Part shown: positions 25,885 through 60,692 of the stretch, piece after piece
Numbering within the stretch: the stretch's first letter is position 1
Layout: each line of letters begins with the position of its first letter
Source of the DNA: Mesorhizobium loti
Lineage (GTDB): Bacteria > Pseudomonadota > Alphaproteobacteria > Rhizobiales > Rhizobiaceae
NCBI GenBank assembly: GCA_014189435.1
Contig: CP050295.1
Location: 62,001 to 126,000, forward strand
Direction of reading: 5' to 3'
DNA: 64,000 nucleotides
Program-made: the position numbers and the translations under genes
The notes under the pieces: model-generated
What the model was told of the DNA's origin: nothing
The model's database searches: none
What the model saw: the letters and a program-made list of their open reading frames with translations, nothing else

Positions 25885-27594
25885 GTGGTGCACAAGAAAG
25901 CGGCGGCGAAGCCCGTGGGTCGTAAACCCACGACGGAGCAGCAACAGGCAATTGACGCTTTCCTGTCCGGTGGCTCGCTCCGCATCAATGCTTATGCGGG
26001 CACCGGCAAGACCTCGACGCTGCAGTTCCTTGCCCACGGCACTCGCAGCCGCGGCCAGTACATCGCCTTTAACAAGGCGATTGTCGGAGACGCCCGTGAG
26101 AAATTTCCTCCGACGGTAAATTGCTCCACCACCCACAGCCTAGCGCTGAAATCGCTGCACTCAGACTACAAAAAAACCAAGGACAAGTTCGCCGGCAAGG
26201 TCGGCACGAAGCAACTCGCTGAGATACTTGGATTCAAGAAGGCCTGGCGAGTTGACCGTGACCATTCTCTACAGCCAGTGTCACAAGCTTATTTGATCCA
26301 GCAAACAGTTAGACGGTTCGCTCAAAGCGGCGACGAGGAAATCTCTGACGCGCACGTGCCTCGGCACGGATCGCTGCTTACGGCCAGCGAAGATACTCTC
26401 AAGGCAGTGAAAGAGTTTGCGTGCAACAATGCCAGGCACGTATGGCACCGCATGTGCGACCCAAAGGATGCGATCCCGCTGGGTTTTGACGGGTTCTTGA
26501 AGCTTTGGGGGCTATCCAAGCCGCAGATCGCAGCCGACTACATCCTTCTAGATGAAGCGCAGGACACCAATCCCGTCGTACTCGAGGTGCTGCGGCGGCA
26601 AAACGCCCAGCTTGTCTACGTTGGCGACCGCTACCAGCAGATATACGAATGGCGTGGCGCGGTGAACGCGATGGATGCGATCAAGACTGATGCCATCGTT
26701 AGCCTGACCCAGTCGTTCCGGTTCGGTCCCGAGATCGCCGGCGAAGCATCCCGCATCCTGCAGCGGCTCGGTGAGAGCGTTCCGCTGACCGGCAATCCCG
26801 CTATGCGGAGCCGGGTCGGTAGCTGCAACCCCAATGCCATCCTTGCCAGGACCAATGCGAACGTCATGACGGCGCTAATCCAGTGCCTCGATGAGGGTCG
26901 CAAGCCGCATCTCGTTGGCGACAACAGGGACCTCAAGGAGCTGCTGTGGGGAGTGCGGGACTTGAAGGAGGGGCGTCCAACCGATGTCGCCGATTTCTTC
27001 GGTTTCACCAGTTGGGAGTCGGTGGTCGACTTCTCCAAGACCACCGAGGGCGAGCACCTGACCATGTTCGTCAACCTGGTGCAGAGCAAGGGCGAGAAGC
27101 GCCTGCTGTGGGCAATCAACCAATCCGTCAGCGAGGAGCAGGCTGAGATCATCATCTCCACAGCACACAAGGCCAAGGGTCGGGAATGGAAAAATGTTCG
27201 ACTGATGGACGACTTCCTGAAGACCCGCGAAGCACGGACTCCCGCGGAAAAGGCCAAACAAGAGCAGGAGGACGCTGCGGAACTAAGGCTTTTCTACGTC
27301 GCCGTTACACGCGCGAAGGAGGCGATCGAGATACCGATCATGGGCAGCAAGGGTGAGCCGCCTCCAGCTTCGGCACTCCTAGCAAAGTATGAGGAGCAGG
27401 CGCCGGCTAAGACCGCTGTCGCGCCACCGGTCGACTGGCAGGAGGCGTTGGTGCATGGGTCCGGACTTGAGGGGATGTCGATCTTTGAAGCGGCAGACTA
27501 TGCCGTGGCCGCCTTGCGGCGGGCGGATTTCGGGCGTGCGCAGGCAAGCATGCGGTTGAGGACGGCGCAGCCGATGGCGACTTCGGTCTGCTGA
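25885..27594 (+). CDS. UvrD/FBH1-like SF1 helicase, 3' end replaced by an IS
   Basis: Superfamily 1 DNA helicase. Motif I is NAYAGTGKTSTLQFLA, motif II DYILLDEAQDTNP, motif III VYVGDRYQQIYEWRGAV, motif IV SLTQSFRFGPEIAGEA, motif V STAHKAKGREWKNVRL and motif VI LRLFYVAVTRAKEAIEI. It resembles the short FBH1-like helicases that displace proteins or recombinase filaments from DNA. From about 27444 the frame reads into an IS5 element (VHGSGLEGMSIFEAADY onwards), so the last 50 residues are foreign; all helicase motifs remain. The start may be upstream (see 25661). Confidence 0.8.
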   Translation: MVHKKAAAKPVGRKPTTEQQQAIDAFLSGGSLRINAYAGTGKTSTLQFLAHGTRSRGQYIAFNKAIVGDAREKFPPTVNCSTTHSLALKSLHSDYKKTKDKFAGKVGTKQLAEILGFKKAWRVDRDHSLQPVSQAYLIQQTVRRFAQSGDEEISDAHVPRHGSLLTASEDTLKAVKEFACNNARHVWHRMCDPKDAIPLGFDGFLKLWGLSKPQIAADYILLDEAQDTNPVVLEVLRRQNAQLVYVGDRYQQIYEWRGAVNAMDAIKTDAIVSLTQSFRFGPEIAGEASRILQRLGESVPLTGNPAMRSRVGSCNPNAILARTNANVMTALIQCLDEGRKPHLVGDNRDLKELLWGVRDLKEGRPTDVADFFGFTSWESVVDFSKTTEGEHLTMFVNLVQSKGEKRLLWAINQSVSEEQAEIIISTAHKAKGREWKNVRLMDDFLKTREARTPAEKAKQEQEDAAELRLFYVAVTRAKEAIEIPIMGSKGEPPPASALLAKYEEQAPAKTAVAPPVDWQEALVHGSGLEGMSIFEAADYAVAALRRADFGRAQASMRLRTAQPMATSVC

Positions 27595-28305
27595 ACTGGA
27601 AGCGACCGTGCCCGCAAACGCCGCCCGATGGTGGACTTGTATCGCCCTATGGCGGTCTCGACCAGCGAGCGTTTGCCATAACCGTTGGAGACCTGCCATT
27701 TCATCCGGCCGTCTCTGCCGATTGCGGCGATATGCTGGTCCCTTTGGCCGGCAGGTCTATCGTCGAATGGTTCGACCGCGTTGACGCGAGGCGGAATGAC
27801 GATTGCGGCGGCAGCGCTGTGATCGATGACTGCGTCGTAAGTCGGTTTTCCGTCATAGGCGCCGTCAGCAGTAAACTGTCCGATCGGACCGCCAATCTGG
27901 TCGAGCAGTGGCTCAACTTGAGACACATCGCCAGTGTCCTGATCAGTCAGGGTATGGGCAATGATCTCGCCGCTGTCGGCATCCAGTGCCAGATGCAGCT
28001 TGCGCCAACTGCGACGGGATCTGGCGCCGTGCTTCTCCTCCAGCCACTGACCCGCGCCGTAGACCTGCAGGCCGGTGCTGTCGACAAGAACATGCACTGG
28101 TCCCTCCGGCGCAACCCGGCGATCATGCCGTTTGTTGGGCGATTGCCATGTCCGCGCCCGACGGCTCAGGGTGGTATGATCGGGGACAGCGAGCGCCAGC
28201 CCCATCAGTTGCAGCACCGATTCCAGCAAGCCTTCTGCCTGGCGCAGCCGCAGGCCAAACACAAGGCCCAGCGTCAAGCCCCACTTAAACACCGCCTGTA
28301 AGAAT
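27444..28305 (-). mobile_element. IS5 family element, 3' part with transposase C-terminus
   Basis: The minus strand encodes the last 260 residues of an IS5 transposase: LRQAEGLLESVLQLMGL, then VPDHTTLSRR, the catalytic VLVDSTGLQVYG, FTADGAYDGKPTYDAV and the Glu segment KRSLVETAIGRYKSTIG. The outer end is GGCGTTGGTGCATGGGTCCGGAC at 27444-27466. The matching N-terminus is at 30067-30378, so the gene was split by the IS1634 element between them. Confidence 0.8.
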
Positions 28306-28311
28306 ATGTTA

Positions 28312-30000
28312 TTATATCAGCACGTTAGGCGCGCGCCGGCGCGTGTTACCACTACATTTTGGGGATGATATCAGGCGAGTTGTTCGTCGAGGTTGTGTGG
28401 CAGAGCGATGCCAGCTGCCTTGAAGACGTTGCCCACTTGGCCCGTAACGTGGGTTCTGGTGGTGACGATGCGACCATCCTTTTCGATGGTGGCTTCCTGG
28501 AGGCGGTCGAGATCGCGTAGGAGCGGCTGCCATTCGGGCGTCAGGCCTTTGGCCCGGCAGAGGCGGCGCAGTTCCTTGCTGAGTACGAGCCCCAGGAACG
28601 AGCAGAACACATGCCCGCGGATGGCGGCATCGGATTGGTGGAAGATCGGCCGGGTATTGAAGGTTGCCTTGGCGGCGCGGAACAGGCTCTCGACCTCGAG
28701 CAAATCGCGATACCGCAGCACGGCCTGGAGCGGGGTCACCTTCGCGTTGGTCCGCACCACGGTGATGCCGTCGTACCGGGCTTCCTCGGCAAGCTTGCCG
28801 ACATCGATCTTGAAGTTCTTGCCGCTGGCCTTGAGGTAACGCCGGTAGGCCGAGTTGCCGACCAGTGCCTTGTCGCCCTTCTTGAGCTGCGCCTCGAGGC
28901 CGGCGATGATCGCCTGGCGGTCGGCCTTGTCCTTCTCGGGCCTCGGCGTCATTGCGGCTGACGATGTAGCGGTCTTTACCGACCTTGACCTCTTTGACCC
29001 ACAACTGAGTTTCACCGCGCTGGCGCTCGAGAACGAGCGGAACCATCGGTGCCGCGTCATTGAGCACGACGTTGTGGATCACGCTGCTCGAGCGTTCGCG
29101 GGCCCCCAGAATGTATTCCATGCCCAGCTTTTCGAGCGCGGCGATGGTATCGGCGCTGATCATGCCGCGATCGGCGACAACGCAGGCGCGTGTGACGCCG
29201 AAGCGCGTTCGCAGCCGATCGACCACCGGCAACAGGACGGTCACGTCAGCGGTGTTGCCGGGTACCATCTCGGTGCAGATCGGCCGGCCCTCGGCATCAA
29301 CGACCAGCGCCAGGATCATTTGCGCCAGATCGGGGCGGAAGTCCTTGGAATGCCCGCGCTTGCCCAGCGTCTCGCCGCCCGCGCCGTAGAAGGATAACGA
29401 GGTGGTGTCCATGAACACAAGGCTGAGGTCGGTGAACAGGTCCTGCCGGCGCGCGAAGAGCTTTTCCTCGATCACGTCTTTCACGCAGCGCGCCACCAGC
29501 GCGCCTTGCGCCTTTTCGCCGAGTTCCTCGCCCAGCCACGCCATGGCCCGGTAAAAGTGATGGAGCGCCAGACCCTCGGCGCCCTCGATACCATAATCGG
29601 CCATCCAGTTCGCGCAGTCGCGGTCCGAGCCCGAGACGAACAGCCGATGCAGCGTGCCAACGAACACCGCCCGTTCCACCGCAAAGCCGAACTGGCGCCC
29701 TTCCAGCACCTCTTCCAGCACCTCGCCGATCCCGAGCCGCTCCCACAGCCGCCCGAACAACAGCGGACCGCCGATGCGGCGAGAGGCAATTCGCCCCGCG
29801 TCAATGTCGGACAGGATGAGGCTGCGTTCGCCATGGCGCGCAATCGAGGCCGCCAATCTGTCAAGTTCGCCGCTGGCAACCAGCGCATCCTTGCGGCCCA
29901 GCGCCTTTATCGTGCGCTGGCGAACGGTTTTGCCGTCGCGGACACTTTCCACGAGGTAGAGATAGCGGTGGCCGCGGGCGACTCTCTCAACGACAAACAT
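28312..30000 (-). mobile_element. IS1634-type element with frameshifted transposase
   Basis: The minus strand encodes a 560-residue IS1634/IS1549-type transposase: MFVVERVARGHRYLYLVES, RTIKALGRKDALVASGELD, FMDTTSLSFYGAGGETLGKR and TRACVVADRGMISADTIAAL. At about 28945 one extra C (GGCCCG for GGCCG) shifts the frame; the true C-terminus then reads EKDKADRQAIIAGLEAQLKK to VFKAAGIALPHNLDEQLA, ending at 28371. The enzyme is therefore broken here. I could not find convincing inverted repeats. Confidence 0.75.
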
Positions 30001-30066
30001 GCCAGCGTTGTTAGCGAATAAATGCCATAAAATCCATACAACATGCGGCTAGCAGATCAAATGTTG

Positions 30067-30378
30067 TTACCACACATTTTCGCGCCGAAAACTCACGGCG
30101 AGTGAATTCAATAGCTTAACGGACAGCGTTCGCCATCCGTTCACCTCCAACTGTTCAAGTCGGGCCAAGGTGGTCTCGATTGCCAGATCAGAATAGCGGT
30201 GCTGGCCGCCACGTGTCTTGCGTCTTGGCGCTTGCCACCTGGACAGGGCTTCCGGCGTCACCCACAGGGTCAAACTGCCGCGATGACGAAGTCCTGCCTC
30301 ATATTCTGGCCAGTTCGTCACCCTGAACTTCATCTTCTCAATATGATGGCGGCCGCTGGTATTGTGTTTGAAAGGCAT
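30067..30378 (-). pseudogene. IS5 transposase N-terminal fragment
   Basis: MPFKHNTSGRHHIEKMKFRV, then VTNWPEYEAGLRHRG and SLTLWVTPEALSRWQAPRRK are the standard N-terminus of IS5 transposases whose C-terminus is found at 27498-28300. After YSDLAIETT the frame leaves the family, marking the break. The two parts are separated by about 1.8 kb of inserted DNA. Confidence 0.7.
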
Positions 30379-30448
30379 GGCTACGCTACAAAGGCTATTG
30401 CGGTGACCGCTTGCCTAAACCCACACCAATAAAAGATCCGTGCACCAT

Positions 30449-31805
30449 GTGTAGACGCCCGTTTGGCAAGAGGAATCTTTAGTTGGCATTGCGCGTTGTC
30501 GGGTGCTGACATGTGTCCGGCCTGTGATGCGGCTTTCACACATGCCGCGGGCCCTTATGGTGTTCGCAGGTCAGGTCCAAATCAACGCCGCGTGCTCTTG
30601 AGACACTTTGGTGCACACTGGTTTTCCTGATCCCGTCTCACGACCGTTGCGCCATACTTCCGATGACCTCTCTCGCTGCGACGTCCCCTCGGTTACGTTG
30701 GCTTTAGACCGCAGCAACCGGAGCTCTGTATATTCCTCCCTTGGCCATGATAGCCCAGATCATTCGCGCCATCTTGTTGGCAAGCGCCACCCTCACCAGC
30801 ATCGGTGGTTTATGCGCCAGCATCTTGGCCAGCCACGTGCCTGGTGTTGCACCCTTGCGGGCGGGCGCGCCACACAAGCTCGCTATTGGCCCCTATGATC
30901 AGGAGCCGCCGCAGAGATCGATCCCCCATCTTCGTCGTGGAGCCGAGACGCTGTTTGCCGCCTGTCGAATGTTGTCGCGGCACAAGCCCAAGCCATGCGG
31001 CGAAGTCCCGCCCACGTTTGAAGGTTTCAGGCGATGGCGCCAGAGCCACCAGTGCGGTGGCAATCAATGGGCCAATTCCGGGAACTGTCATCAACCGGCG
31101 TGCGGTCTCATCTTCACGAGCCCGGCGCACAATCTGTGCATCCAGCACGCGAATCTGATCATTCAGTTGGGACAAGCTTGCTGTCAGAAACCGCAGAGCA
31201 GTCCGCGCAGTTTCTGGAAGAGCCGTTTGCGGATCCTCAATCATCGCAATCAGTTTCGAAGCGAAGCTTAAACCCTGCGGCACGACTTCACCAAATTCCG
31301 CAAGGTGGCCGCGCAGCGCATTGATGGTCTGCGTGCGCTGCCGGATCAGCAGATCGCGGGTGCGCAACACCACTGCTGCGGCTTGTCTTTCTTCGCTCTT
31401 CACGGCAACAAAGCGCATCGTTGGTCGTTGCGCCGCCTCGCAGATCGCCTCAGCATCAGCCATGTCGTTCTTCTGCCGCTTCAAAAAGGGCTTCACGTAG
31501 GCCGGTGGGATCATACGGACTTCGTGTCCCAAATGCCCTATCTCACGCGCCCAGAAATGCGAGCTTCCGCAGGCTTCCATCGCAACCAGGCACCGTGGCA
31601 GGCCACCAAAGAATTTCAAAACCCGCCCGCGCCGCAATTGCTTGCGAAACACAACAGCACCTGTTTCGTCAGCCCCGTGGACCTGAAACACGTTCTTGGC
31701 TAAATCCAAACCGATCGTACGAACTTCGCTCATGATGCCCATCTCCAATGGTGGTTTAAACAACTCCACTTTGCCACACACTGCGGTCGTCGCGGGCGTC
31801 TACAC
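30449..31805 (-). mobile_element. IS110 family element (IS1111-like)
   Basis: A perfect 13-bp inverted repeat, GTGTAGACGCCCG at 30449-30461 and CGGGCGTCTACAC at 31793-31805, brackets an IS110 transposase and about 240 non-coding bases beyond its 3' end. Subterminal inverted repeats are a mark of the IS1111 group. It lies directly beyond the 3' end of the PPTase gene. Confidence 0.75.
30704..31733 (-). pseudogene. IS110 transposase, frameshifted near the C-terminus
   Basis: Starts MSEVRTIGLDLAKNVFQVHG (DEDD/RuvC-like catalytic core), continues VAMEACGSSHFWAREIGHLG and RQKNDMADAEAICEAA, and has the C-terminal transposase_20 segment MTVPGIGPLIATALVALAP. At about 30872 one extra base in a GCCCGCCCGC run shifts the frame; without it the protein would run KGATPGTWLAKMLAHKPPML to GGIYRAPVAAV and stop at 30704. 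It may be inactive or a sequence error. Confidence 0.8.
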
Positions 31806-31829: not shown

Positions 31830-32510
31830 TCAAGCGCGGCCGAAGATGATGCCCCATTTTGATCGGGGCCCCGTAACGAAGACTGCAGTGAGTATCAGTC
31901 CATTGGAGATGATGAACCGGCCGCGAAGCTCCCACGCATGATCTTCGGCCGGCAGGAATGTGTGGGGGAGGCGAGCATGAAATGTGCCATCGTCGGGGAT
32001 GATGGTGACCACGGCGTCCTCGAAGCCTAGCCATTCACGTGTGAGCGGGAACCATGCCTTAAAGATGCTTTCCTTAGCACTGAAGAGCAACCGGTCCCAA
32101 TTGAGGCGCCCGGGTGCGTTGGCCAGCCAATACCGTTCCTCGTCAACCGAAATGAGCTCCAATACGCCGGATGGCAACTCCTCGTCGACTTCTGCATCGA
32201 TTCCAAGCGCAGCGTAGTCCCCATGCTGAGCGACGGCGGCGGCACAGAATCCAGCACAATGTGTTATGCTGCCAACCACACCAGGTGGCCAAAGCGGCTC
32301 ACGGTGAGGTCCACTTGGGATCGCGCAGGGAGGAAAGCCGAGCTTGGACAATGCCGCTCTGGCACAGGCACGCCCGATCGAGAATTCACGCCTTCTGCTC
32401 TCGGCCGCAGTGGCGATTGCACTCTCTTCTTCGGCCATCACCAGGGCACTGCTGAGATCTCTTGCTCGACAGGTTTGCACAGCAACGTTTGGGGGGAACA
32501 GCGTATCCAA
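31830..32510 (-). CDS. EntD/Sfp-type 4'-phosphopantetheinyl transferase
   Basis: Attaches phosphopantetheine from CoA to carrier domains, so it should activate the two T domains of the NRPS encoded upstream. EntD-type motifs are present: FSIGRACARAALSKLG, WPPGVVGSITHCAGFCAAAVA, LGIDAEVDEELPSG (Mg-binding Asp and Glu) and LLFSAKESIFKAWFPLT (K-E-S-x-x-K). No reliable ATG exists; I chose TTG 32510 (GAGCGAGG upstream), giving about 226 residues, the normal length. The open frame extends to 32627. It is last in the NRPS-MATE-PPTase order on the same strand. Confidence 0.85.
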   Translation of the reverse strand: MDTLFPPNVAVQTCRARDLSSALVMAEEESAIATAAESRRREFSIGRACARAALSKLGFPPCAIPSGPHREPLWPPGVVGSITHCAGFCAAAVAQHGDYAALGIDAEVDEELPSGVLELISVDEERYWLANAPGRLNWDRLLFSAKESIFKAWFPLTREWLGFEDAVVTIIPDDGTFHARLPHTFLPAEDHAWELRGRFIISNGLILTAVFVTGPRSKWGIIFGRA

Positions 32511-32729
32511 ATGTCCTCGCTCTCTCGACCGCGATCCGCTGCTGGCCGGCTCATGCAGGTCGCGCTGCGGCCAACACCCGTCCTTTGTCCTCGCCGTGCC
32601 GGATTGACCATTCGTGCGCCCGGTCAAGCATGCACGGATGGGTCCTGTATTGGATCTGGCTCTTCAACCACGATCTGCGGGCAGAACCGAAATGATCGCC
32701 TTTCACGTCAGCAGCGTCGACCCGATTCC

Positions 32730-34082
32730 CTAGCTCAGCGAGGGCATTCCTTTAAGAACGCCGATCTGCCCGCGAATTACAAACAGAGCAATCAGCCCCG
32801 CCACCAACTCAGCAACTGCCTGGCAGGCCAACAGTCCGTTAAAGCCCCAAATGACTGGAAACAGTAGTATGGCGGGTATGAAAAGGTAGCCTTGCCTGGC
32901 AAGGGAAACGACGGCACTGAGGCGTACTCTCCCCAATGACTGAAGCAGGGTGATCGCAACGTACTGAACACCAAAGAGGCCGAAGAAAAGATGGAAAACA
33001 ATACAGGCAGAGACGGCGAGATCGATTACATCCTCGTTATCGCTGAAAAGCGAAACCATTGGCCGAGCAAAAATCAGGACCACGGCGGAAAAGCTGACTG
33101 AAAATGCGACGGCTATGAAAAGCATGAACTTCGCGGCCTTCTCTACCCGGGCGAAATCCTGTGCTCCCCAACCGAAACCGAGAACCGCCTGAGAGCCTAT
33201 GCAGAAGCCGATAATTGGGAGTGCCCCGATCGTTGACAATCGCACGGCTATACCCACAGCGGCAACGGAAGCGTCGCCGAATGGTGCAGCAGCACGGTAG
33301 AAGAGCATGAATGCAACGGCAGACAAAATACTGGTGATAGTTGCCGGCGCTCCAATGGCGGCGATCTGTTTGATGCGGCCCACCCTGAAGGTAATGTAAG
33401 AAGTTCCGATACGAACAATCCCACACTTCTTTAGGAAATATGCGATGTAGACGCTGATAGCGGCGATCTGAGACAACAGCGTCGCAAGCGCCGCTCCTCG
33501 AACGCCCAGATCTAGCAAGAAAATGAAGATAGGATCGAGCACGGTATTCAGCGCGAAAGCCGTAATCATGGTCCACATGCTGAATCGTGTATTGCCCTCG
33601 GCCCTTACGATGAACCCATTGACAATGTTCAGCAGCATGAGAGTGTAGCCGAACAAGAGCGTCGATGCGTACTCAAGCGCGGCCGGCATGATTGTCGGAC
33701 TGGCGCCAAGCATAGCGAGAATCTTGCGCAAAGACAGAAACAGACCGACAGTAAGACCCACTCCGATCGGAACCGCGAGAGCGAGCGCCAAGCTCGCGCC
33801 GCGACTCGCCTCAAGCGAGTTGTCAGCGCCAAGATGGCTAGACACGAATGATGCTGTGCCTACGCCGAGCCCCTGTCCGACTGCCAAGAGGAGGACAACG
33901 ATCGGGAAAGTCATGCTGACGGCGGCGATAGCCTGTGCCCCGAGCGTGCCAACAAAGATCGCATTCACGAACTGCTGAAGCGCATTGATCGACAAGCCAA
34001 TAATCGAAGGAATGGCGAGTCGCATGATGAGGCGGGAAAGTTTTTCGTCCGACAGATTAATGTGTTGTTCCGGTGCTGCCAT
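32730..34082 (-). CDS. MATE family efflux transporter
   Basis: 450 residues with 12 predicted helices in two halves (LIMRLAIPSIIGLSINALQQ; IAAIGAPATITSILSAVAFM), typical of NorM/MATE exporters that use a Na+ or H+ gradient. It starts 64 bases after the end of the NRPS coding region and 103 or more bases before the PPTase frame, so it is probably in one operon and exports the peptide product. ATG 34082 has a GAGGGGG ribosome site about ten bases upstream. Confidence 0.88.
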   Translation of the reverse strand: MAAPEQHINLSDEKLSRLIMRLAIPSIIGLSINALQQFVNAIFVGTLGAQAIAAVSMTFPIVVLLLAVGQGLGVGTASFVSSHLGADNSLEASRGASLALALAVPIGVGLTVGLFLSLRKILAMLGASPTIMPAALEYASTLLFGYTLMLLNIVNGFIVRAEGNTRFSMWTMITAFALNTVLDPIFIFLLDLGVRGAALATLLSQIAAISVYIAYFLKKCGIVRIGTSYITFRVGRIKQIAAIGAPATITSILSAVAFMLFYRAAAPFGDASVAAVGIAVRLSTIGALPIIGFCIGSQAVLGFGWGAQDFARVEKAAKFMLFIAVAFSVSFSAVVLIFARPMVSLFSDNEDVIDLAVSACIVFHLFFGLFGVQYVAITLLQSLGRVRLSAVVSLARQGYLFIPAILLFPVIWGFNGLLACQAVAELVAGLIALFVIRGQIGVLKGMPSLS

Positions 34083-34145
34083 GCTTCTGATTGCCCCCTC
34101 TTCCTCAACCCCCTACCCCGGACTTATCGTCGGTTGACAGGTCGG

Positions 34146-35026
34146 CTACACATCTTCAGATGTATTGATTATCTGGAGCAGTTCCTGGCGCAAGATTGTG
34201 CAGAGGTTGCGGGTCGTTCCATAGCCAACTTGTCTTGGATCGTATCTCACTTCGATTTGTAGCTCACCAGCTTCGTATCCGACACGAAACCAGAAGAGGT
34301 AGTTCATGGCGGACTGCTCCATATCTTCGCCGATCCAAAGTGAGTGCGGATCTCTGGCTAGCAGACGCCGTGGATAATGGCGTTGCAGTCGTGCTCGATA
34401 GTTCAGTCCGATCCTAGGCAACGGCAAATGATCGATCCGCTTCCGCACTGCCGGATCCCGATTCAAGAACTTCATCGCCCGAAAACCGATCCCCCGGCGC
34501 GGCAGCGCGTTGCGCTGCCGATATATCGAACGAGCGCGATCCGGACGAGACTCCTTCCCAGTCAGATATAAGGGAAGCGGAACCAGCTCGCCGACATAGC
34601 CGATGATCTGAGACGGATCGATGTCGTCGAATAACTCACCTCTGGTCGATGTGAGGCTGTCGATCCAGAGCGAGTAATTCCCGAAAGCGCGGCCAAACGC
34701 CCCTGACACAGCCGCAAGGAATATATCAAAATCCTCGCATTGCGCAGACGTCGCCGAGACATTGAGAAGTCTGGCCGTCGCCTTCTCGCCGATCGTTACG
34801 CAATATTTGGCCTGATCTTCCCAAAGTTGGCTGCAATATTCTTCATTTACCAATCCCTCCAAGCGGGCATAATGGAGCCTTCTTGCAGTTTCATCTAAAA
34901 ATTCCGCTGTACCCGAGCCAGCATCGCTCACATGCATATCGAGCAGATCATATCGAACCCCCTCCCAATATTCGAGTTCGGTTGGCGCTTCGCTATCTGC
35001 GTAATGGCCCAATCGCTCCAGCCACT
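34146..35026 (-). pseudogene. NRPS C-terminal remainder (second half of final condensation domain), out of frame
   Basis: Continues the condensation domain interrupted at 34993: after the shift the protein reads SQWLERLGHYADSEAPTELE, then WIDSLTSTRGELFDDIDPSQ, IIGYVGELVPLPLYL and YLFWFRVGYEAGELQIEVRY, ending IINTSEDV. The order fits motifs C4-C7 of condensation domains. No carrier or thioesterase domain follows. It has no start of its own and would be made only if the frame is restored. Confidence 0.8.
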
Positions 35027-38000
35027 GAGAGAGAGGCGTCGTCTCTGGATCCGCAATGGTCCCCGCCTGCGGCTAGCGTATTGTAGGCTGTTTCCAGTGC
35101 ATTTAGGAACAGTCGGTACCCAGTCCCGTCAGCTACAAAGTGATGCATCAAAACAAGCAGATAGTAGTTGCCGCTCTCTGATGTCCGGAAGGCTGAAAGC
35201 CTGACGAGGGGTGTCTGACCGTCAAACCGAAACCTGGTTTGACGCTCTGCGCAGGCGCCTTCGATGACCGTCAGCTGTTTTGCCGTGGCCATGCCGACCA
35301 GGTCTATTTCTTCCACGAGGGGATTGGGTACCGATCCGATTGCCTGAGATAGGCCGCTCTCGGTTTGGACTATTCGAAGTTTCAGTCCTTCGTGCCGACC
35401 AATGACATGAGCAAGGGCGCCTTCAAGGATTGATAGATTCAAGAGACCCGCGGGCAGGAAGAAAAGGTCGCCAAGGTTGTAGTGCTCGCCTAATCCGACA
35501 AGGCTGTTCCAAGATGAGACGGCGGGAGTCACTAGCAACGGTCCATCGGGAGCCTCATAGGCAGAGATCGTCGTGGCCGATGCGATTTCCTTGGCCAATT
35601 CCCGAATGGTCGATGTTCTATACAGTTGGCCAACGGTCAAGCTCAGTCCGGCTTTACGCGCTAATGTAACGCAACGCACACTCAGAAGAGAGTTTCCGCC
35701 GATATCAAAGAAGCTGTCATCGATCCCGATGGATTTGGCGCCCAACAGATCTTGCCAGATCTCGGCAAGAAGTCTCTCCCGCTCCGTGCGCGGCTCAGTA
35801 GATTGGGCATTCCGAAGCTCGCGGGATCGGACAGAAGAGAGGCGACGACGATCTATCTTCCCGCTCGCCGTCAGTGGCATACGGTCCACCATGCGAAAAT
35901 CGGATGGAATCATGTAGGGCGGCAATTCCTGCCGTAGGTGATTCACAATGTCTCCTGCGGTAAGGCCATCGTCAGTTGGGACCACTATGGCCACCAGTCG
36001 GCGATTGTCATCCACTCCCCGAACGACTGCGGTGGCCCTGGCAATTCCAGGATGCACTTCAAGGGCGTTTTCGATTTCCTCCAGCTCAATTCGGAAACCC
36101 CGGAGCTTGATTTGGTTGTCTGATCGACCGCAAATCTCCAGAAGACCTTTGGCTGAGACGCGGGCGATATCGCCACTGCGATAAACAAGGCCGTATTGGC
36201 AGTCATCATATGGATTGGGCACGAAACTTTGCTTCGTTCGCTCTGGGTCCCGCCAGTACCCCGTGCTTACGCAGCGTCCCGCGACGCAGAGTTCGCCTGC
36301 TACCCCGACGGGAACCCGCTCCAACTGTGCATTGAGCACATAGATCTTCACATTGTCGATTGGGCGCCCGATCGGCACAGCTTTAGAGCCATCGTCCGCC
36401 TCCGATGTTGCGTAGACTGCCGCATTAGACGCGCATTCCGTGGCGCCATAAAAATTCCATAGCGGCACATCTGGAAAGCTCTGTCGCCAACGAGAAGGAA
36501 GCGATGGCGGCATCGGTTCAGCACTGCTTGTGACTAGGCGCAAGCTGGTCGTTTCCGCATGTCGTTTTTGAGAGGCGATCAGACCGGACAGAATGGGCGG
36601 GGAAGCGAACAACCGAGTCACGCGATGCCTAGTCAAGGCACTCAACAAGAGGTCGGGGTCGAGCAACTGGTCATCGGTCAGGATCAGCGTTGGGACCCCC
36701 TTCAGGAGTCCTCCAAAATACTCCCATGCTGCGGCAACAAGTCCCGCCGACTTCTGAACAACGATCACGTCGGCGCCATCAAACGGAAAGCATCGCCACA
36801 TCCAGTTCAGTCGATTGAGTATTGCGGGCTCAGGTATGAGAACGCCTTTCGCCTTACCCGTTGAGGATGAGGTGTAGATCAGGCTGGCTGCGCTGTTATC
36901 AGGCTGCTCGACCTCGCAGTGCATTGCCCGAGCGGGGTAGTATCTCGCCTGCAGGAAAGACAAGCTAACGGACGGCACACCGAAATCGATCTCTTCGTCC
37001 GCGCTGGCGTGAATTAGGAGCTTTGCACCGCTATCTCTTACAACGTGGCTGATCCGTTCCTTCGGGCAATCTGGCGATATAGGCACGACGGTCGCCTGCA
37101 TTGCCCGGATAGCCAAAGTTGTAGTGGCCACTTCAGGTGACCGGTCGATCAGCATGGCGACCATGTCGCCCGGCCCTACCTCGCCGGTACGCAGAGCGGA
37201 CTGGATCGCCGCCATGCGTTCGCGCAGTTGGCCGAACGTGACTTCTCCGAACTCGCCGAAATACGCCACCCGGTCGTTCTTTGCGCTGACCTGATCGAAG
37301 GCTTCCACGAGCGAAGGTTCGTTCTCATGTACCTGCTCAGCGCCCCTGAGCGCGTCCAGCATGGCGACCTCCGAGGGGCACAGGCAAGTCAGGGCGACAA
37401 TCGGCTCAGCCGGCCTCTCGACACAGGCAGCAATAAGATGGCGAAGATTGGCGGCCATGCGAGCGATCACGTGACTTGAAAAAATGTCTTCCGCATATGC
37501 CAGTTGCAGCGCAATCTCATCGCCCTGGTCTTGCGCATACAGGGTAAGGTCGAACTTCACATAGCCTGTGTCATATTCACGAAACGTCAGATCCAAATCG
37601 CGTTCGGCCGGTGGCTCCTGGGGTTCGGAGTACATGTTGAACATGACTTGGAAGATCGGTGATCGACCGGCTTCGCGGTACAATCGGGCGTCCCTCACCA
37701 TCCAACTGAATGGATACGCCGAGTTCGCGATGGCATCGCTGACAAGGGCTTGCACATGAGTTACGTGAGCCACAAAGGACTTATTGACATCGATAGTGGT
37801 TCGGATTGGTAGCATATTGAGGAAAAAACCAACGATCTCCTCCGTGCCTGTTTGGTCGCGCACGACGTGCGGTATACCGACGATGACATCGTCCTGGCCG
37901 CTATACATCCGCAACAGGAGCTTAAAGCATGCCAACAGGATCGTGGATGTGGTGCACCTGTGCCGACGTGCAAAACCCCTCACTTGATCGGACAGTTCTT

Positions 38001-40590
38001 CACCAAGGGGAACCGCATGCGAGGCCCCACGGTAGGAATTCCCTTTCGGCCGGGGTCGATCACTCGCTAGCAAAAGCGCGGGCGGATTGTCGCCAATCTG
38101 CCCACGCCAGTAGCGCCGCTGCTCAACCAGCAAGTCCGGTGTAACGTGTACACTTTCCCAGAGCGCATAGGCCGAGAGTGACACACGATGCTCTGGAGAG
38201 AACGGGGCAGCATTGGTGTATCTCGTTCGCAAGTCTCTGAGCAAGACGGAGATCGACCAGGCATCTATGATAATTTCGTGTGCGGTTATCAGTATTAGAT
38301 GGTCATCCGCGGCAAGGCGGATCATGCGCGCACGAAACAAATGGCCCTGACTGAGATCAAAGGCGTCGTTGAGCTCGGTCTGCCGCATCTCCGCCACAAG
38401 CTCCTCAGCCTCCTGTTGCGTAAGGTGAGTGGTGTCAACCAACTCTAAATTGGCGTAATGCGGATCATCAAAAATCTGGACCGGCCCATCTTCGTCGCTG
38501 AAACGTGCCGAAAGCGCGTCGTGGGCCCTGACGACATTGATCCAAGCTTCATTGAAAGCAGTCAGATCGATTGCTCCTCGTATACGCAGGCCACCTTGAA
38601 TGACGTAGTTTTTCGCATCCGGATCGAGCTGCCAGAGGAACCACAGGTGTTCCTGCACCCGTGTCAGCGATGATCGTCCGTGCTTCCGGCCCGCTGGAAG
38701 CACGTTCTGTGTCGTCTCGGATTGGCTTGATAGCGATGCCGCCAGCGACCTGACGGTCCCATTTAGCACCAGCCTGAAATCCACCTTCGCCCTGAGCTGC
38801 CTCTGCAGCTGGGCTAATATAAGCATCGCCCGGAGCGAGTCCCCGCCAAGGTCCATGAATTGGTCGTTCACGCCGATATCTTTGATGCGAAGAACGCTGG
38901 ACCAGATACCTCGCAGCTTGCCTTCGAGCTCCGTCTTTGGTTCCTCGAACGAATTCAGCATCTGAGGGCGAATGGTCGTCGGATCCGGCAAAGCTGCAAA
39001 GTCTACTTTCCCGTTTCTGGTAATTGGAATGCCATCGACATGAATGATACGCTCCGGGACCATGTAGGCAGGAAGCGTTTCGGCAACAAAGCTTCGGAGT
39101 CCACTTTCCAAGACGTCGGGAGGAGCCGATACATAGGCCACTATTCGTCTTGGCCTGATCCCTCCGTCGGCCTTGGTTATGTCTCTTGCTGTGAGCTTCA
39201 CGCCTTCATTGACGGGTGCTACGGCGACGGCGCCACTTACCGAAGGATGGGTGCAGAGCCGAGACTCAATCTCTCCAAGCTCGACCCGGTGCCCCCGGAT
39301 CTTGACTTGACGGTCTCGCCTGCCAAGACATTCCAGCAGGCCGTCAGCTCTGAAGCGTCCGCGATCGCCTGTCTTGTATAGGCGCCGATGGGATGGATGG
39401 TTGGAGAACGGGTTTGGAAAAAAAGCATCTTTGGTACGCGCGCTATCATTGATGTAGCCAGCAGCGACACCGACTCCGCTGACACAGATCTCGCCGACTT
39501 CACCCGTCCTGCACAGCCGCCATCCATCGGCGACATAGACTTCAAGATTGGAGATCGGCCGACCGATCGGTACATAGGCGTCAGCTGCACTAGGCGGGAC
39601 AGAAACCACATGGTGGGTAACCCCATCCGCACATTCTGTCGGGCCATAGTGATTGAGAATTGGGACTTGGGGATACAGTGCCAGCCAGGCGCGCGCCAGG
39701 GCAGGCGTCAGCGGCTCGCCGACCGTGGAGATCATGCGTAAGGCACTGAGAGGGCGCTCGTCTGCCGCGAGTGTCTGCAGATACTCAACAAATATGGCAA
39801 GCACCGATGGGACGAATTGGACAATTGTGACGCCTTGTCCCTGCAGCGCCTTAAGAAGAGCGATCGGAGATCTAAGCGTGGCATCGTCTATGATCGCGAC
39901 GCGGCTTCCAACGCATAGCCCTGCCAAGAGCTGCCACAGCGAGATGTCAAAGCAATGCGATGCAGTTTGAGCGATGCAGTCCTTCTCGGTCAGCTCGAGC
40001 GCATCGATCTTGGCTATCAAATGGTTGTTTAGTCCGGTACGCTCGACCATCACACCCTTGGGCCACCCCGTCGAACCGGACGTAAACAAGATGTAAGCGA
40101 GACCGCACTCAGCCGAAGAGGGCATCGCAGAAGAGGCACGGTCCCCAAATAACGCGGTCTGCACCGTCATGAATTCTCGGGTGCCGTGGCTGTTTTCTTG
40201 AAGCAGACCGAGGGCTTCCGGCCGCTCTTGCCCGATAATCAGAGTGCATCCACTCTGCTCGACCATGAATGAAGTGCGTGAGGCCGGTAAAGATGGGTCG
40301 AGCGGCAAATATGTTGAGCCGCCCTTCAGAATTGCGATTACTGTAGCGGCCCAATTGGGATTTCGTTCACCACAATAGCTCACGATCGTTCGCACCGCGC
40401 AGCGCTCTCGTAGAGTGCTCGCGATTCTAGCCGACATGACTCGCAGCTCACCATATGTGAGTTCCGCCGCGCCATGCGTAATCGCGATTCTGTCCGGAAA
40501 CGATGCCCCGATTTCATCGATAGCCGCGATTACATCGGTGAGCCGACGTCCGTCCAGCTTGTGCTTCTCACGTGAATTTTCGTTAAACAT
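34993..40590 (-). CDS. Two-module non-ribosomal peptide synthetase (A-T-C-A-T-C)
   Basis: About 1865 residues from ATG 40590. Domains: A1 about 15-550 (ILFTSGSTGWPKG, NHYGPTE, YKTGDRGRF, NGK Lys); T1 Ser near 585 (DLGGDSLRAM); C1 about 640-1070; A2 about 1090-1580; T2 Ser near 1633 (DIGGNSLLSV); C2 from about 1680 with MHHFVADG near 1816. C1 has HEIIIDA where HHxxxDG is expected. A2 lacks the usual Asp that binds an alpha-amino group. The frame ends early because of a slip in a GA repeat; the rest lies in another frame to 34146. It has no TE domain, so the last C domain may release the product. The TTG at 40683 is unlikely as start. The product is unknown. Confidence 0.9.
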   Translation of the reverse strand: MFNENSREKHKLDGRRLTDVIAAIDEIGASFPDRIAITHGAAELTYGELRVMSARIASTLRERCAVRTIVSYCGERNPNWAATVIAILKGGSTYLPLDPSLPASRTSFMVEQSGCTLIIGQERPEALGLLQENSHGTREFMTVQTALFGDRASSAMPSSAECGLAYILFTSGSTGWPKGVMVERTGLNNHLIAKIDALELTEKDCIAQTASHCFDISLWQLLAGLCVGSRVAIIDDATLRSPIALLKALQGQGVTIVQFVPSVLAIFVEYLQTLAADERPLSALRMISTVGEPLTPALARAWLALYPQVPILNHYGPTECADGVTHHVVSVPPSAADAYVPIGRPISNLEVYVADGWRLCRTGEVGEICVSGVGVAAGYINDSARTKDAFFPNPFSNHPSHRRLYKTGDRGRFRADGLLECLGRRDRQVKIRGHRVELGEIESRLCTHPSVSGAVAVAPVNEGVKLTARDITKADGGIRPRRIVAYVSAPPDVLESGLRSFVAETLPAYMVPERIIHVDGIPITRNGKVDFAALPDPTTIRPQMLNSFEEPKTELEGKLRGIWSSVLRIKDIGVNDQFMDLGGDSLRAMLILAQLQRQLRAKVDFRLVLNGTVRSLAASLSSQSETTQNVLPAGRKHGRSSLTRVQEHLWFLWQLDPDAKNYVIQGGLRIRGAIDLTAFNEAWINVVRAHDALSARFSDEDGPVQIFDDPHYANLELVDTTHLTQQEAEELVAEMRQTELNDAFDLSQGHLFRARMIRLAADDHLILITAHEIIIDAWSISVLLRDLRTRYTNAAPFSPEHRVSLSAYALWESVHVTPDLLVEQRRYWRGQIGDNPPALLLASDRPRPKGNSYRGASHAVPLGEELSDQVRGFARRHRCTTSTILLACFKLLLRMYSGQDDVIVGIPHVVRDQTGTEEIVGFFLNMLPIRTTIDVNKSFVAHVTHVQALVSDAIANSAYPFSWMVRDARLYREAGRSPIFQVMFNMYSEPQEPPAERDLDLTFREYDTGYVKFDLTLYAQDQGDEIALQLAYAEDIFSSHVIARMAANLRHLIAACVERPAEPIVALTCLCPSEVAMLDALRGAEQVHENEPSLVEAFDQVSAKNDRVAYFGEFGEVTFGQLRERMAAIQSALRTGEVGPGDMVAMLIDRSPEVATTTLAIRAMQATVVPISPDCPKERISHVVRDSGAKLLIHASADEEIDFGVPSVSLSFLQARYYPARAMHCEVEQPDNSAASLIYTSSSTGKAKGVLIPEPAILNRLNWMWRCFPFDGADVIVVQKSAGLVAAAWEYFGGLLKGVPTLILTDDQLLDPDLLLSALTRHRVTRLFASPPILSGLIASQKRHAETTSLRLVTSSAEPMPPSLPSRWRQSFPDVPLWNFYGATECASNAAVYATSEADDGSKAVPIGRPIDNVKIYVLNAQLERVPVGVAGELCVAGRCVSTGYWRDPERTKQSFVPNPYDDCQYGLVYRSGDIARVSAKGLLEICGRSDNQIKLRGFRIELEEIENALEVHPGIARATAVVRGVDDNRRLVAIVVPTDDGLTAGDIVNHLRQELPPYMIPSDFRMVDRMPLTASGKIDRRRLSSVRSRELRNAQSTEPRTERERLLAEIWQDLLGAKSIGIDDSFFDIGGNSLLSVRCVTLARKAGLSLTVGQLYRTSTIRELAKEIASATTISAYEAPDGPLLVTPAVSSWNSLVGLGEHYNLGDLFFLPAGLLNLSILEGALAHVIGRHEGLKLRIVQTESGLSQAIGSVPNPLVEEIDLVGMATAKQLTVIEGACAERQTRFRFDGQTPLVRLSAFRTSESGNYYLLVLMHHFVADGTGYRLFLNALETAYNTLAAGGDHCGSRDDASLSVAGAIGPLRR
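35027..35035. repeat. (GA)4G tract at the NRPS frameshift
   Basis: On the coding strand this is CTCTCTCTC. One additional CT unit would give DASLSQWLERLGHYAD and restore a continuous condensation domain. Dinucleotide tracts can lose or gain units in replication. Confidence 0.75.
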
Positions 40591-40831
40591 GCGCATCCAG
40601 CCTACAATTTTTGGGGCTCCCTCACTCCAGAGCCGATTCCAGGCCTGGAAGTTTGTGAGGGGCTCGCCACGCCGGGGGCTCAATCTGCAAGACCATGTTG
40701 CTCCAAAGCTATTGCCAAAGGTTGCGCGACTTTATGCGCAAGCTTGTTTACCTCTTAGAGACGAGGCGCCGGGTTCAAGGGAAGTTTCTGCGTGCAGTCA
40801 GCCCTCACTCAATGTCGCTGCATCTCATTCA

Positions 40832-40846
40832 GCAAAGGCCGTGCCA
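40832..40846 (-). promoter_or_regulatory. Sigma-54 promoter of the NRPS operon
   Basis: Reads TGGCACGGCCTTTGCT on the minus strand, which fits TGGCACG-N4-TTGCW at every consensus position. Transcription should begin near 40820, leaving about 230 bases before ATG 40590. No other gene on this strand lies between. Confidence 0.8.
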
Positions 40847-40908
40847 GCGCGCTCCGCGCGCGGGATGCGCATGATTACGCGTGGAAAACCTCCACAGTGC
40901 CCAAGATG

Positions 40909-40953
40909 TGTTTTGAACCTGACATGTTTTCTGACGATGTCAGGTTTTGGACA
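40909..40953. promoter_or_regulatory. Two NifA-type upstream activator sequences
   Basis: TGT-N10-ACA occurs at 40909-40924 (TGTTTTGAACCTGACA) and at 40938-40953 (TGTCAGGTTTTGGACA), 29 bases apart. They are inverted near-copies of each other and together form a long palindrome (AACCTGACAT and its inverse, 40916-40946). They lie about 65-110 bases upstream of the -24 element, where NifA normally binds. Confidence 0.75.
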
Positions 40954-59172: not shown

Positions 59173-60692
59173 CTATGAGGCGGGCATGTAAAGGTCGCTG
59201 TACCGGTCGCGCAGAAGGTTCTTCTGCACCTTTCCCATGGTGTTGCGCGGAAGGTCCTCGACGAAGATGACCCGTTTCGGCTGCTTGTAGCGCGCGAGGC
59301 GGGCGTGCAGCGCGTTGAGCACGGCCTTTTCGTCCAGCCGGGTGCCGGGCTCGAGGACCACTATCGCCGTCACGCCCTCACCGAAGTCGGGGTGCGCAAC
59401 GCCGATCACCGCGCTCTCGGCGACGCCGTCGAGCTGGTCGATCTCGTTCTCGACCTCCTTCGGATAGATGTTGTAGCCGCCGGAAATCACCAGGTCCTTG
59501 CCGCGTCCGACGATGTGGACATAGCCCGCCTCATCGATCTTGCCGAGGTCGCCGCTGATGAAATGACCGTCCCTGCTGAACTCCGCCGCCGTCTTTTCCG
59601 GCATCCGCCAGTAGCCTTTGAAAACGTTCGGCCCTTGATCTCGATCATGCCGGTTTCGCCTGGTCCAAGCGCCTCGCCCGTGGCTGGATCGGTGACCTTC
59701 ACCGACACGCCTGGGAGTGGAAGGCCGACTGTCCCGGCCCTTCGCTCGCCTTCATAAGGGTTTGAGGTATTCATGTTGGTCTCGGTCATCCCGTAGCGCT
59801 CGAGGATGGCGTGACCGGTGCGCTGCTCGAATGCGGCGTGTGTTTCGGCAAGCAGCGGCGCCGAGCCTGATATGAAAAGCCGCATATTGGCAACGGCGTC
59901 ACGGTTAAGGCCCTCGTGCTGAAGCAGCCGCACATAGAACGTCGGCACGCCCATCATCAGCGTCGCGCGCGACATCAGAGGAAGGATTTCTTCCGGCTCG
60001 AACTTTGGCAGCAGAAACATCGAGGCGCCCGCGATGAGCGTGATATTGGTCGCCACGAAGAGCCCATGCGTGTGAAAGATCGGCAGCGCGTGGATCAGCC
60101 GGTCGGCTGTCGTCACGCACCAGCACTCGCGCAACGCAAGCGCATTGGACAACAGGTTGTCGTGCGTCAGCATTGCGCCCTTGGAACGGCCGGTGGTCCC
60201 CGATGTGTAGAGGATCGCAGCGAGATCGTCAGGCGCGCGCGCGGCGTCGAAGAAGTCGACAGACTCCTCCCTTGCCAACTCCATCAGCGATCCAGCGCCG
60301 TCGGCATCGAGTGTTTCGACGATTGCGCCGTGGCGATGCGCGATCTTTTCGACTTCAGCCCGAGCCCTTGATGAGACGACGACCAGCCGCGGTTCGGCGT
60401 CACCGATAAAATAATCGAGTTCGGCCAACGTGTAAGCGGTGTTCAATGGCAAATAGACCGCCCCGCAACGCAAGCATGCAAGGTAGAGCATCAGAGCCAG
60501 CGGGCTCTTGTCCACCTGGACTGCGACTCGGTCGCCAGGGCGAACACCAAGCACGTCGACCGTGCTGGCGATCTGTCCGGAGAGCCGCAGCGCATCTCCA
60601 TAGGTCCAATGCCGACCATCGATGGTCTCGATGAAAATGGACTCGCCTGACTTGGCGGATGCTCGCATGGCGTCGAACAGGTGATTGCTCAT
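59173..60692 (-). pseudogene. matB: MatB malonyl-CoA synthetase, one frameshift
   Basis: MatB ligates malonate to CoA with ATP. The N-terminal part is intact: AAILYTSGTTGRSKGAMLTH (P-loop), MRLFISGSAPLLAETH, YGMTETNMNTSNPYEGERRA. At about 59633 one base is missing (GGGCCG for GGGCCCG); the C-terminal part then reads VFKGYWRMPEKTAAEF, DGHFISGDLGKIDEAGYVHI, GGYNIYPKEVENEID and LPRNTMGKVQKNLLRDRY with the catalytic Lys. It begins 22 bases after matA. Confidence 0.85.

Follow-up and report, generated by a model that had tools for sequence, protein, structure and literature searches.

A dimodular peptide synthetase operon behind a predicted NifA/sigma-54 promoter in Mesorhizobium loti

Results

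The DNA stretch analysed here, a window of 64,000 nucleotides from Mesorhizobium loti (C3:62001-126000), carries on its minus strand genes for a nonribosomal peptide synthetase (NRPS), a MATE family exporter and a 4'-phosphopantetheinyl transferase (PPTase), which all point in one direction and were assigned with Pfam and NCBIfam models. We think it rather probable that this operon is activated by NifA and sigma-54 (RpoN) in bacteroids and that it makes and exports one small peptide-like compound. NifA and sigma-54 would switch the genes on in low-oxygen, nitrogen-fixing bacteroids. There the carrier domains of the NRPS would be charged by the PPTase, the NRPS would assemble what is predicted to be one and the same compound in every relative, and this compound would likely leave the cell through the MATE pump. 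Judged from sequence, the compound is likely made in root nodules by strains with a whole NRPS gene; in the present strain this gene is split, and production is therefore doubtful.

A preliminary description of this DNA had placed a consensus RpoN promoter and two TGT-N10-ACA sites at the usual NifA distance upstream of the operon, and both features are indeed present. The sequence TGGCACGGCCTTTGCT at 40831-40846 (minus strand) is the sole exact -24/-12 match in the window, and the two upstream activator sequences (UAS; 40909-40924 and 40938-40953) lie within the expected range of about 60-180 nt upstream of the -24/-12 element. Their combination is rare: the pair pattern (a UAS followed after 40-100 nt by TGGCAYR-N4-TTGCW) occurs at five places in the 8.33-Mb genome, which consists of three contigs (C3 comprises 656 kb), and at none when the pattern is reversed, while the -24/-12 pattern alone gives 19 exact genome matches versus 4 for its reversed form. 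The five pair sites are the NRPS promoter, a site at C3:547032 and three near-identical UAS and -24/-12 promoters on two contigs (C2:227192, C2:445737 and C3:356519); a guess that these three represent nifH promoters was dropped.

The site at C3:547032 precedes a gene for a 393-aa TlpA-like protein (Pfam Redoxin and thioredoxin families above cut-off, NCBIfam thioredoxin-type models below), and similarity of the NRPS promoter and leader to this locus runs from ahead of the UAS into the coding start (E 2e-78, one-against-one); after a gap, a second stretch of 31 bases follows (29/31 identical). A decayed 5' end of a TlpA-like gene thus stands between promoter and NRPS, and longer remnants, corresponding to TlpA residues 1-71 and about 106-136, occupy the same place in two relatives (L021, L022). 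UAS 1 consists of the identical 16 bases in the promoters of the NRPS relatives L020-L022 and at C3:547032, whereas UAS 2 is a variant in L021 and L022 and disrupted in L020. Related promoter sequence was found in 92 of 146 Mesorhizobium genomes, and among 30 fetched copies (the best match of each genome, with the copy of the window counted in) 17 precede a largely full-length TlpA-like gene, five the NRPS, and eight a gene fragment or neither. The NRPS promoter was apparently captured from a TlpA-like gene; for the direction of this move we rely on the decayed state of the coding remnant.

Upstream stretches of NRPS relatives were scanned with a matrix built from 15 promoters of M. loti R7A, with 'Nr msi281', whose -24/-12 element is identical to ours, excluded. 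The scan covered 60 relatives of 64 loci (L079, L080, L082 and L083 were not used), 58 of which are close relatives, the other two being the distant L076 and L077. Matrix matches were found for 24 of the 60 relatives versus 13 of 2852 background tiles taken from these loci, and matches accompanied by an exact UAS for 19 of the 60 versus 5 of the 2852. The -24/-12 site is present in 23 of the 58 close orthologues; the 24th match belongs to L077 and has no UAS. All 17 close relatives from Mesorhizobium, Sinorhizobium and Rhizobium have the site, 13 of them with an exact UAS, and it was found in 6 of the 41 Bradyrhizobium orthologues, each time with an exact UAS. In L045 the exact UAS goes with a second site farther upstream. 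Twelve of the 14 Sinorhizobium/Rhizobium rows read TTGA, with A at -12 (L055 and L066 have TTGC), a base reported at this position for M. loti and R. etli nifH (PMC3538637). No similarity at E 1e-3 was detected between the promoters of Mesorhizobium, of Sinorhizobium/Rhizobium and of Bradyrhizobium (eight sequences compared). On a FastTree phylogeny of the NRPS, in which short or broken copies (L055, L068, L071, L080, L081) as well as L079, L082 and L083 were excluded, the promoter state requires three changes over 55 rows. The PPTase gene is restricted to promoter-bearing rows (17 of 22 with the promoter versus 0 of 35 without; 57 close rows, not counting L055 and L080). A scan of 1500 nt upstream in L028-L081 with patterns for the Nod box (up to 9 mismatches), the tts box (up to 4) and the FixK box (exact) returned only four weak tts-like matches, at 4 mismatches.

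The control by NifA and RpoN that the preliminary description had inferred thus holds up in part. The rarity of the pair in the genome, the homology with a TlpA-type promoter and the 17 of 17 relatives outside Bradyrhizobium speak for it; absence of the motifs from orthologous clusters, named beforehand as a sign to the contrary, is seen in 35 of 41 Bradyrhizobium orthologues. In Mesorhizobium, Sinorhizobium and Rhizobium, NifA and RpoN likely drive the operon; such control is not universal, and the promoter evidence does not extend to most Bradyrhizobium.

The NRPS is associated with the exporter gene and with nodC. A MATE match of more than 60% identity accompanies the NRPS in 58 of 59 close rows (a few are partial, e.g. 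L053 and L068), a PPTase match of more than 50% identity in 18 of 59, some partial. Among the 50 genomes tested that contain an NRPS relative (50 of the 64 loci), all but one (49) have a nodC match above cut-off, and since these loci were found through the NRPS, the nodC figures are conditional counts; an even draw of the order gave nodC in 8 of 397 genomes. The exception, L079, is a metagenome-assembled genome of a Clostridiaceae bacterium with a 35% relative at L079:7977-14468 that has nearly the same A-domain codes; a MATE-like match (24%) lies just upstream of it, and nodC was not found above cut-off. In Bradyrhizobium, an orthologue of at least 73% identity is present in 64 of 265 genomes, counting partial and broken copies, and nodC in 63 of these 64 carriers versus 135 of 265 genomes overall (Fisher p 1.3e-21); the carrier without nodC, G791, has a stop inside its NRPS copy. 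Five of 146 Mesorhizobium genomes carry the NRPS, all five with nodC, which occurs in 101 of the 146. Distant relatives at 38-40% identity were found in Paraburkholderia atlantica (L076) and Sinorhizobium psoraleae (L077). The NRPS-MATE pair is conserved and symbiosis-linked in nodule-forming bacteria of several genera. Contig C3 itself is likely a symbiosis replicon, as two nifA genes above cut-off and nodC are located on it. The closest NRPS relative, from Mesorhizobium sp. AR07, is encoded by a plasmid of 1.02 Mb whose type is conjugative.

Gene order and protein families of the operon are as the preliminary description had them, but the NRPS is split and not one intact gene (Table 1). Its open reading frame (ORF) ends within the last domain, and the remaining part continues in another frame; in L020, which is 99% identical, one uninterrupted ORF crosses the split point, where the two sequences differ in length by one base. 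The tail domain occurs in five of the 146 Mesorhizobium genomes, and in all of these but the present one the frame stays open, over 2161-2194 aa. Unless a sequencing error accounts for the frameshift, as the one-base difference from L020 makes possible, the copy of this strain is probably inactive. The mechanical NRPS start at 40683 falls inside the remnant of the other gene; from the window sequence and the starts of relatives, ATG 40590 is the likely true start. Shortened versions in which the protein stops inside A2, namely P0073 of B. japonicum (1320 aa) and P0071 (1272 aa), suggest that the NRPS gene has been lost repeatedly.

Two A (adenylation), two T (carrier) and one C (condensation) domain with the carrier serines present make this a dimodular NRPS, as the preliminary description had stated. 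Predicted A-domain codes were taken, at the GrsA code positions, from 58 aligned rows (the 57 of the tree and L079), with by-eye comparison with LgrA alignments. The A1 code of the window is found in 57 of 58 rows; the A2 code is found in 47 of 58, with close variants elsewhere, even at 38-40% identity. Because of this near-invariance, all relatives probably make one conserved compound. The A1 substrate should be an alpha-amino acid, since the Asp of the code is kept. A2 has Val or Ile where Asp is usual (and SSSTG instead of SGSTG in 56 of 58 rows); its substrate is therefore probably an acid that lacks a free alpha-amino group. In the C domain the canonical HHxxxDG is replaced by HExxxDA, with HE in each of the 57 rows inspected out of 58.

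By profile and fold the terminal domain is a member of the E family. E-domain chains of bacitracin synthase 3, PvdL, GrsA and TycA led a profile search, and TycA, GrsA, TycB and PvdL were on top in a fold search with a structural model (mean pLDDT 75.6; below 50 for the first 37 residues). In its HHxxxDG motif the two His residues, Asp and Gly are invariant in 20 aligned relatives. EGHGRE is a motif of NRPS epimerisation (E) domains; its Glu is missing here, the aligned residue being the Leu of SLTSTRG, and release or cyclisation of the chain thus appears more likely than epimerisation. The expected product is a two-unit compound that the terminal domain would release or cyclise.

Table 1. Features of the operon and its upstream region, in window positions
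Feature	Position	Strand	Basis or remark
UAS 1, TGT-N10-ACA (predicted NifA site)	40938..40953	-	106 nt ahead of the -24 17-mer
UAS 2, TGT-N10-ACA (predicted NifA site)	40909..40924	-	77 nt ahead of the -24 17-mer
-24/-12 site CTGGCACGGCCTTTGCT (predicted RpoN promoter)	40831..40847	-	19.1 bits, matrix from 15 R7A promoters
Decayed 5' end of TlpA-like thioredoxin gene in the promoter-NRPS interval	40642..40696	-	alignment with the genome's own TlpA-like locus (L087)
NRPS, mechanical ORF	34993-40683	-	Pfam/NCBIfam
NRPS with likely start ATG 40590	34993..40590	-	A1-T1-C-A2-T2 plus first half of terminal E-like domain; early stop by frameshift
A1 domain	39226..40458	-	predicted code DIWQSVHDGK
T1 (PP-binding)	38737..38919	-	
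C domain	37366..38673	-	HEIIIDAWS replaces HHxxxDG
A2 domain	35857..37296	-	predicted code VAWFTSFSNK, without Asp at the first code position
Remainder of terminal E-like domain, other frame	34146..35072 (ORF 34146-35012)	-	
MATE family exporter, 450 aa	32730..34082	-	TIGR00797, 201.7 bits versus cut-off 147.4
4'-phosphopantetheinyl transferase, 265 aa as listed	31830..32627	-	4PPT_N and ACPS above cut-off

Transposase genes of the IS5, IS1634 and IS110 types lie immediately downstream of the operon (window 27498-31781). At window 59191-60605 there is an AMP-ligase-like sequence whose matches fall into two adjoining pieces in different open frames, perhaps a broken gene. Two other genes stand behind exact -24/-12 sites elsewhere in the genome. 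One encodes a radical SAM/SPASM-type protein (L091:4404-5786, C2:408403-409785), with TGT-N10-ACA 159 nt upstream; the 25 models shown for it, including PqqE- and peptide-maturase-types, are all below cut-off. The other, on C3, encodes a serine-protease-type autotransporter (L092:199-3222) with a UAS-like site 135 nt upstream (EprS model below, autotransporter barrel above cut-off).

Discussion

Several observations weigh against activation of the operon by NifA and sigma-54 for production of a nodule compound. TGT-N10-ACA sites taken alone are at chance level in the window (6 found, 6.9 expected), and no promoter of the type described was detected within 720 nt upstream of the 35 Bradyrhizobium orthologues, none of which reaches the top 5% of the background. 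The NRPS of the window itself is split by a frameshift, and the predicted A-domain codes, placed by GrsA positions, name no amino acid. The link with nodC could also arise by hitch-hiking on symbiosis islands or plasmids. Finally, no expression data on this NRPS family were found in open-licence literature, the data found there concerning another gene, blr2108 of Bradyrhizobium diazoefficiens.

The most serious alternative, to which we give somewhat less than an even chance, is that the operon is a relic in this strain: the promoter would be functional, but the split NRPS would make nothing and the operon would be decaying after transfer. The ORF that stops in the terminal domain where L020 reads through and the other four Mesorhizobium carriers are open, the adjoining insertion sequence-type genes and the shortened copies elsewhere, such as P0073, are all consistent with such decay; on the other hand, a length difference of a single base can be a sequencing error, and the MATE and PPTase genes are 100% and 99% identical to those of L020. 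It is unlikely, in our estimate, that the operon is nodulation-island cargo for competition outside the nodule, making an antimicrobial or a metal chelator rather than a compound of the nitrogen-fixation stage. MATE pumps frequently export toxic compounds, and most Bradyrhizobium orthologues have no NifA/RpoN site; the -24/-12 site in all 17 other close relatives, and its presence in three promoter groups without detected similarity, argue against this alternative. We consider it more improbable still that the motifs are a passive leftover, a promoter brought in by the TlpA-like fragment that has no control over the NRPS. The presence in the leader of a decayed beginning of another gene, the frequency of related promoter sequence in Mesorhizobium and the identical -24/-12 element of R7A, 'Nr msi281', which faces no annotated complete gene there (PMC3538637 Table 1), would fit this explanation. 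However, L020-L022 retain an intact -24/-12 element and UAS 1 despite decay of the TlpA-like coding remnant, and in other genera the NRPS is preceded by promoters of this type for which no homology was detected.

Activation by NifA and sigma-54 in bacteroids remains our preferred explanation. A more far-reaching proposal, which we put forward tentatively and hold to be rather doubtful, is that one NRPS-made dipeptide-like compound is a widespread, symbiosis-locked metabolite of alpha- and beta-rhizobia, brought under NifA/RpoN through at least three unrelated promoters, one of them captured from a TlpA-like gene, and that it has a signalling or effector role in the nodule, directed at the plant or neighbours. 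Rhizobial metabolites other than Nod factors and polysaccharides are poorly charted, and a small NRPS that is nearly confined to nodulating bacteria, shows hardly any variation in its predicted substrate residues and stands behind nif-type promoters in three genera suggests a nodule metabolite that has gone unrecognised. A promoter that still carries the decayed 5' end of another gene also offers a readable case of how a biosynthetic gene was recruited into the nitrogen-fixation regulon.

Comparison with known systems

A description of this NRPS family was not found in open-licence literature, subscription journals and preprints being outside the search, and the parts seen of a Bagel4 survey of integrative and conjugative or mobilizable elements in 41 complete Mesorhizobium genomes report no such peptides (PMC8627217). 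In its domain order (A-T-C-A-T) the present NRPS resembles the dimodular LgrA and the aureusimine synthetase AusA, and among solved structures LgrA ranks first as a relative of both A domains. It differs from them in its C motif, in the missing Asp of A2 and in a terminal domain that is E-like and not a reductase, as the terminal domain of AusA is; the AusA model scores 825, below its cut-off of 2500. The promoter has the same architecture as those of the NifA-RpoN operons of M. loti R7A, among which 'Nr msi281' has the identical -24/-12 element; in contrast to the present operon, Table 1 of that study lists no NRPS, and 'peptide synth' is absent from its main text (PMC3538637).

The nearest regulatory parallel is blr2108, an NRPS gene listed among the NifA and RpoN1 targets of B. 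diazoefficiens, which is 39.0-fold up in soybean bacteroids (PMC6515984 Table 2) and whose protein shows a log2 change of 6.5 under low oxygen, with '-' as microoxic transcript entry (PMC6515984). In genome G609 we infer from its place that the NRPS gene at about 2.277 Mb is blr2108; it encodes 3310 aa and has a -24/-12 site with UAS upstream (21.4 bits with the R7A matrix). Orthology with the present NRPS was rejected, given 34% identity, over most of a 1320-aa Bradyrhizobium query, and lengths of 3310 versus 2147 aa. Both are nonetheless NRPS of nodulating bacteria with a -24/-12 element and UAS upstream, and going by the data on blr2108, NifA control of an NRPS is already known, for another NRPS than the one described here.

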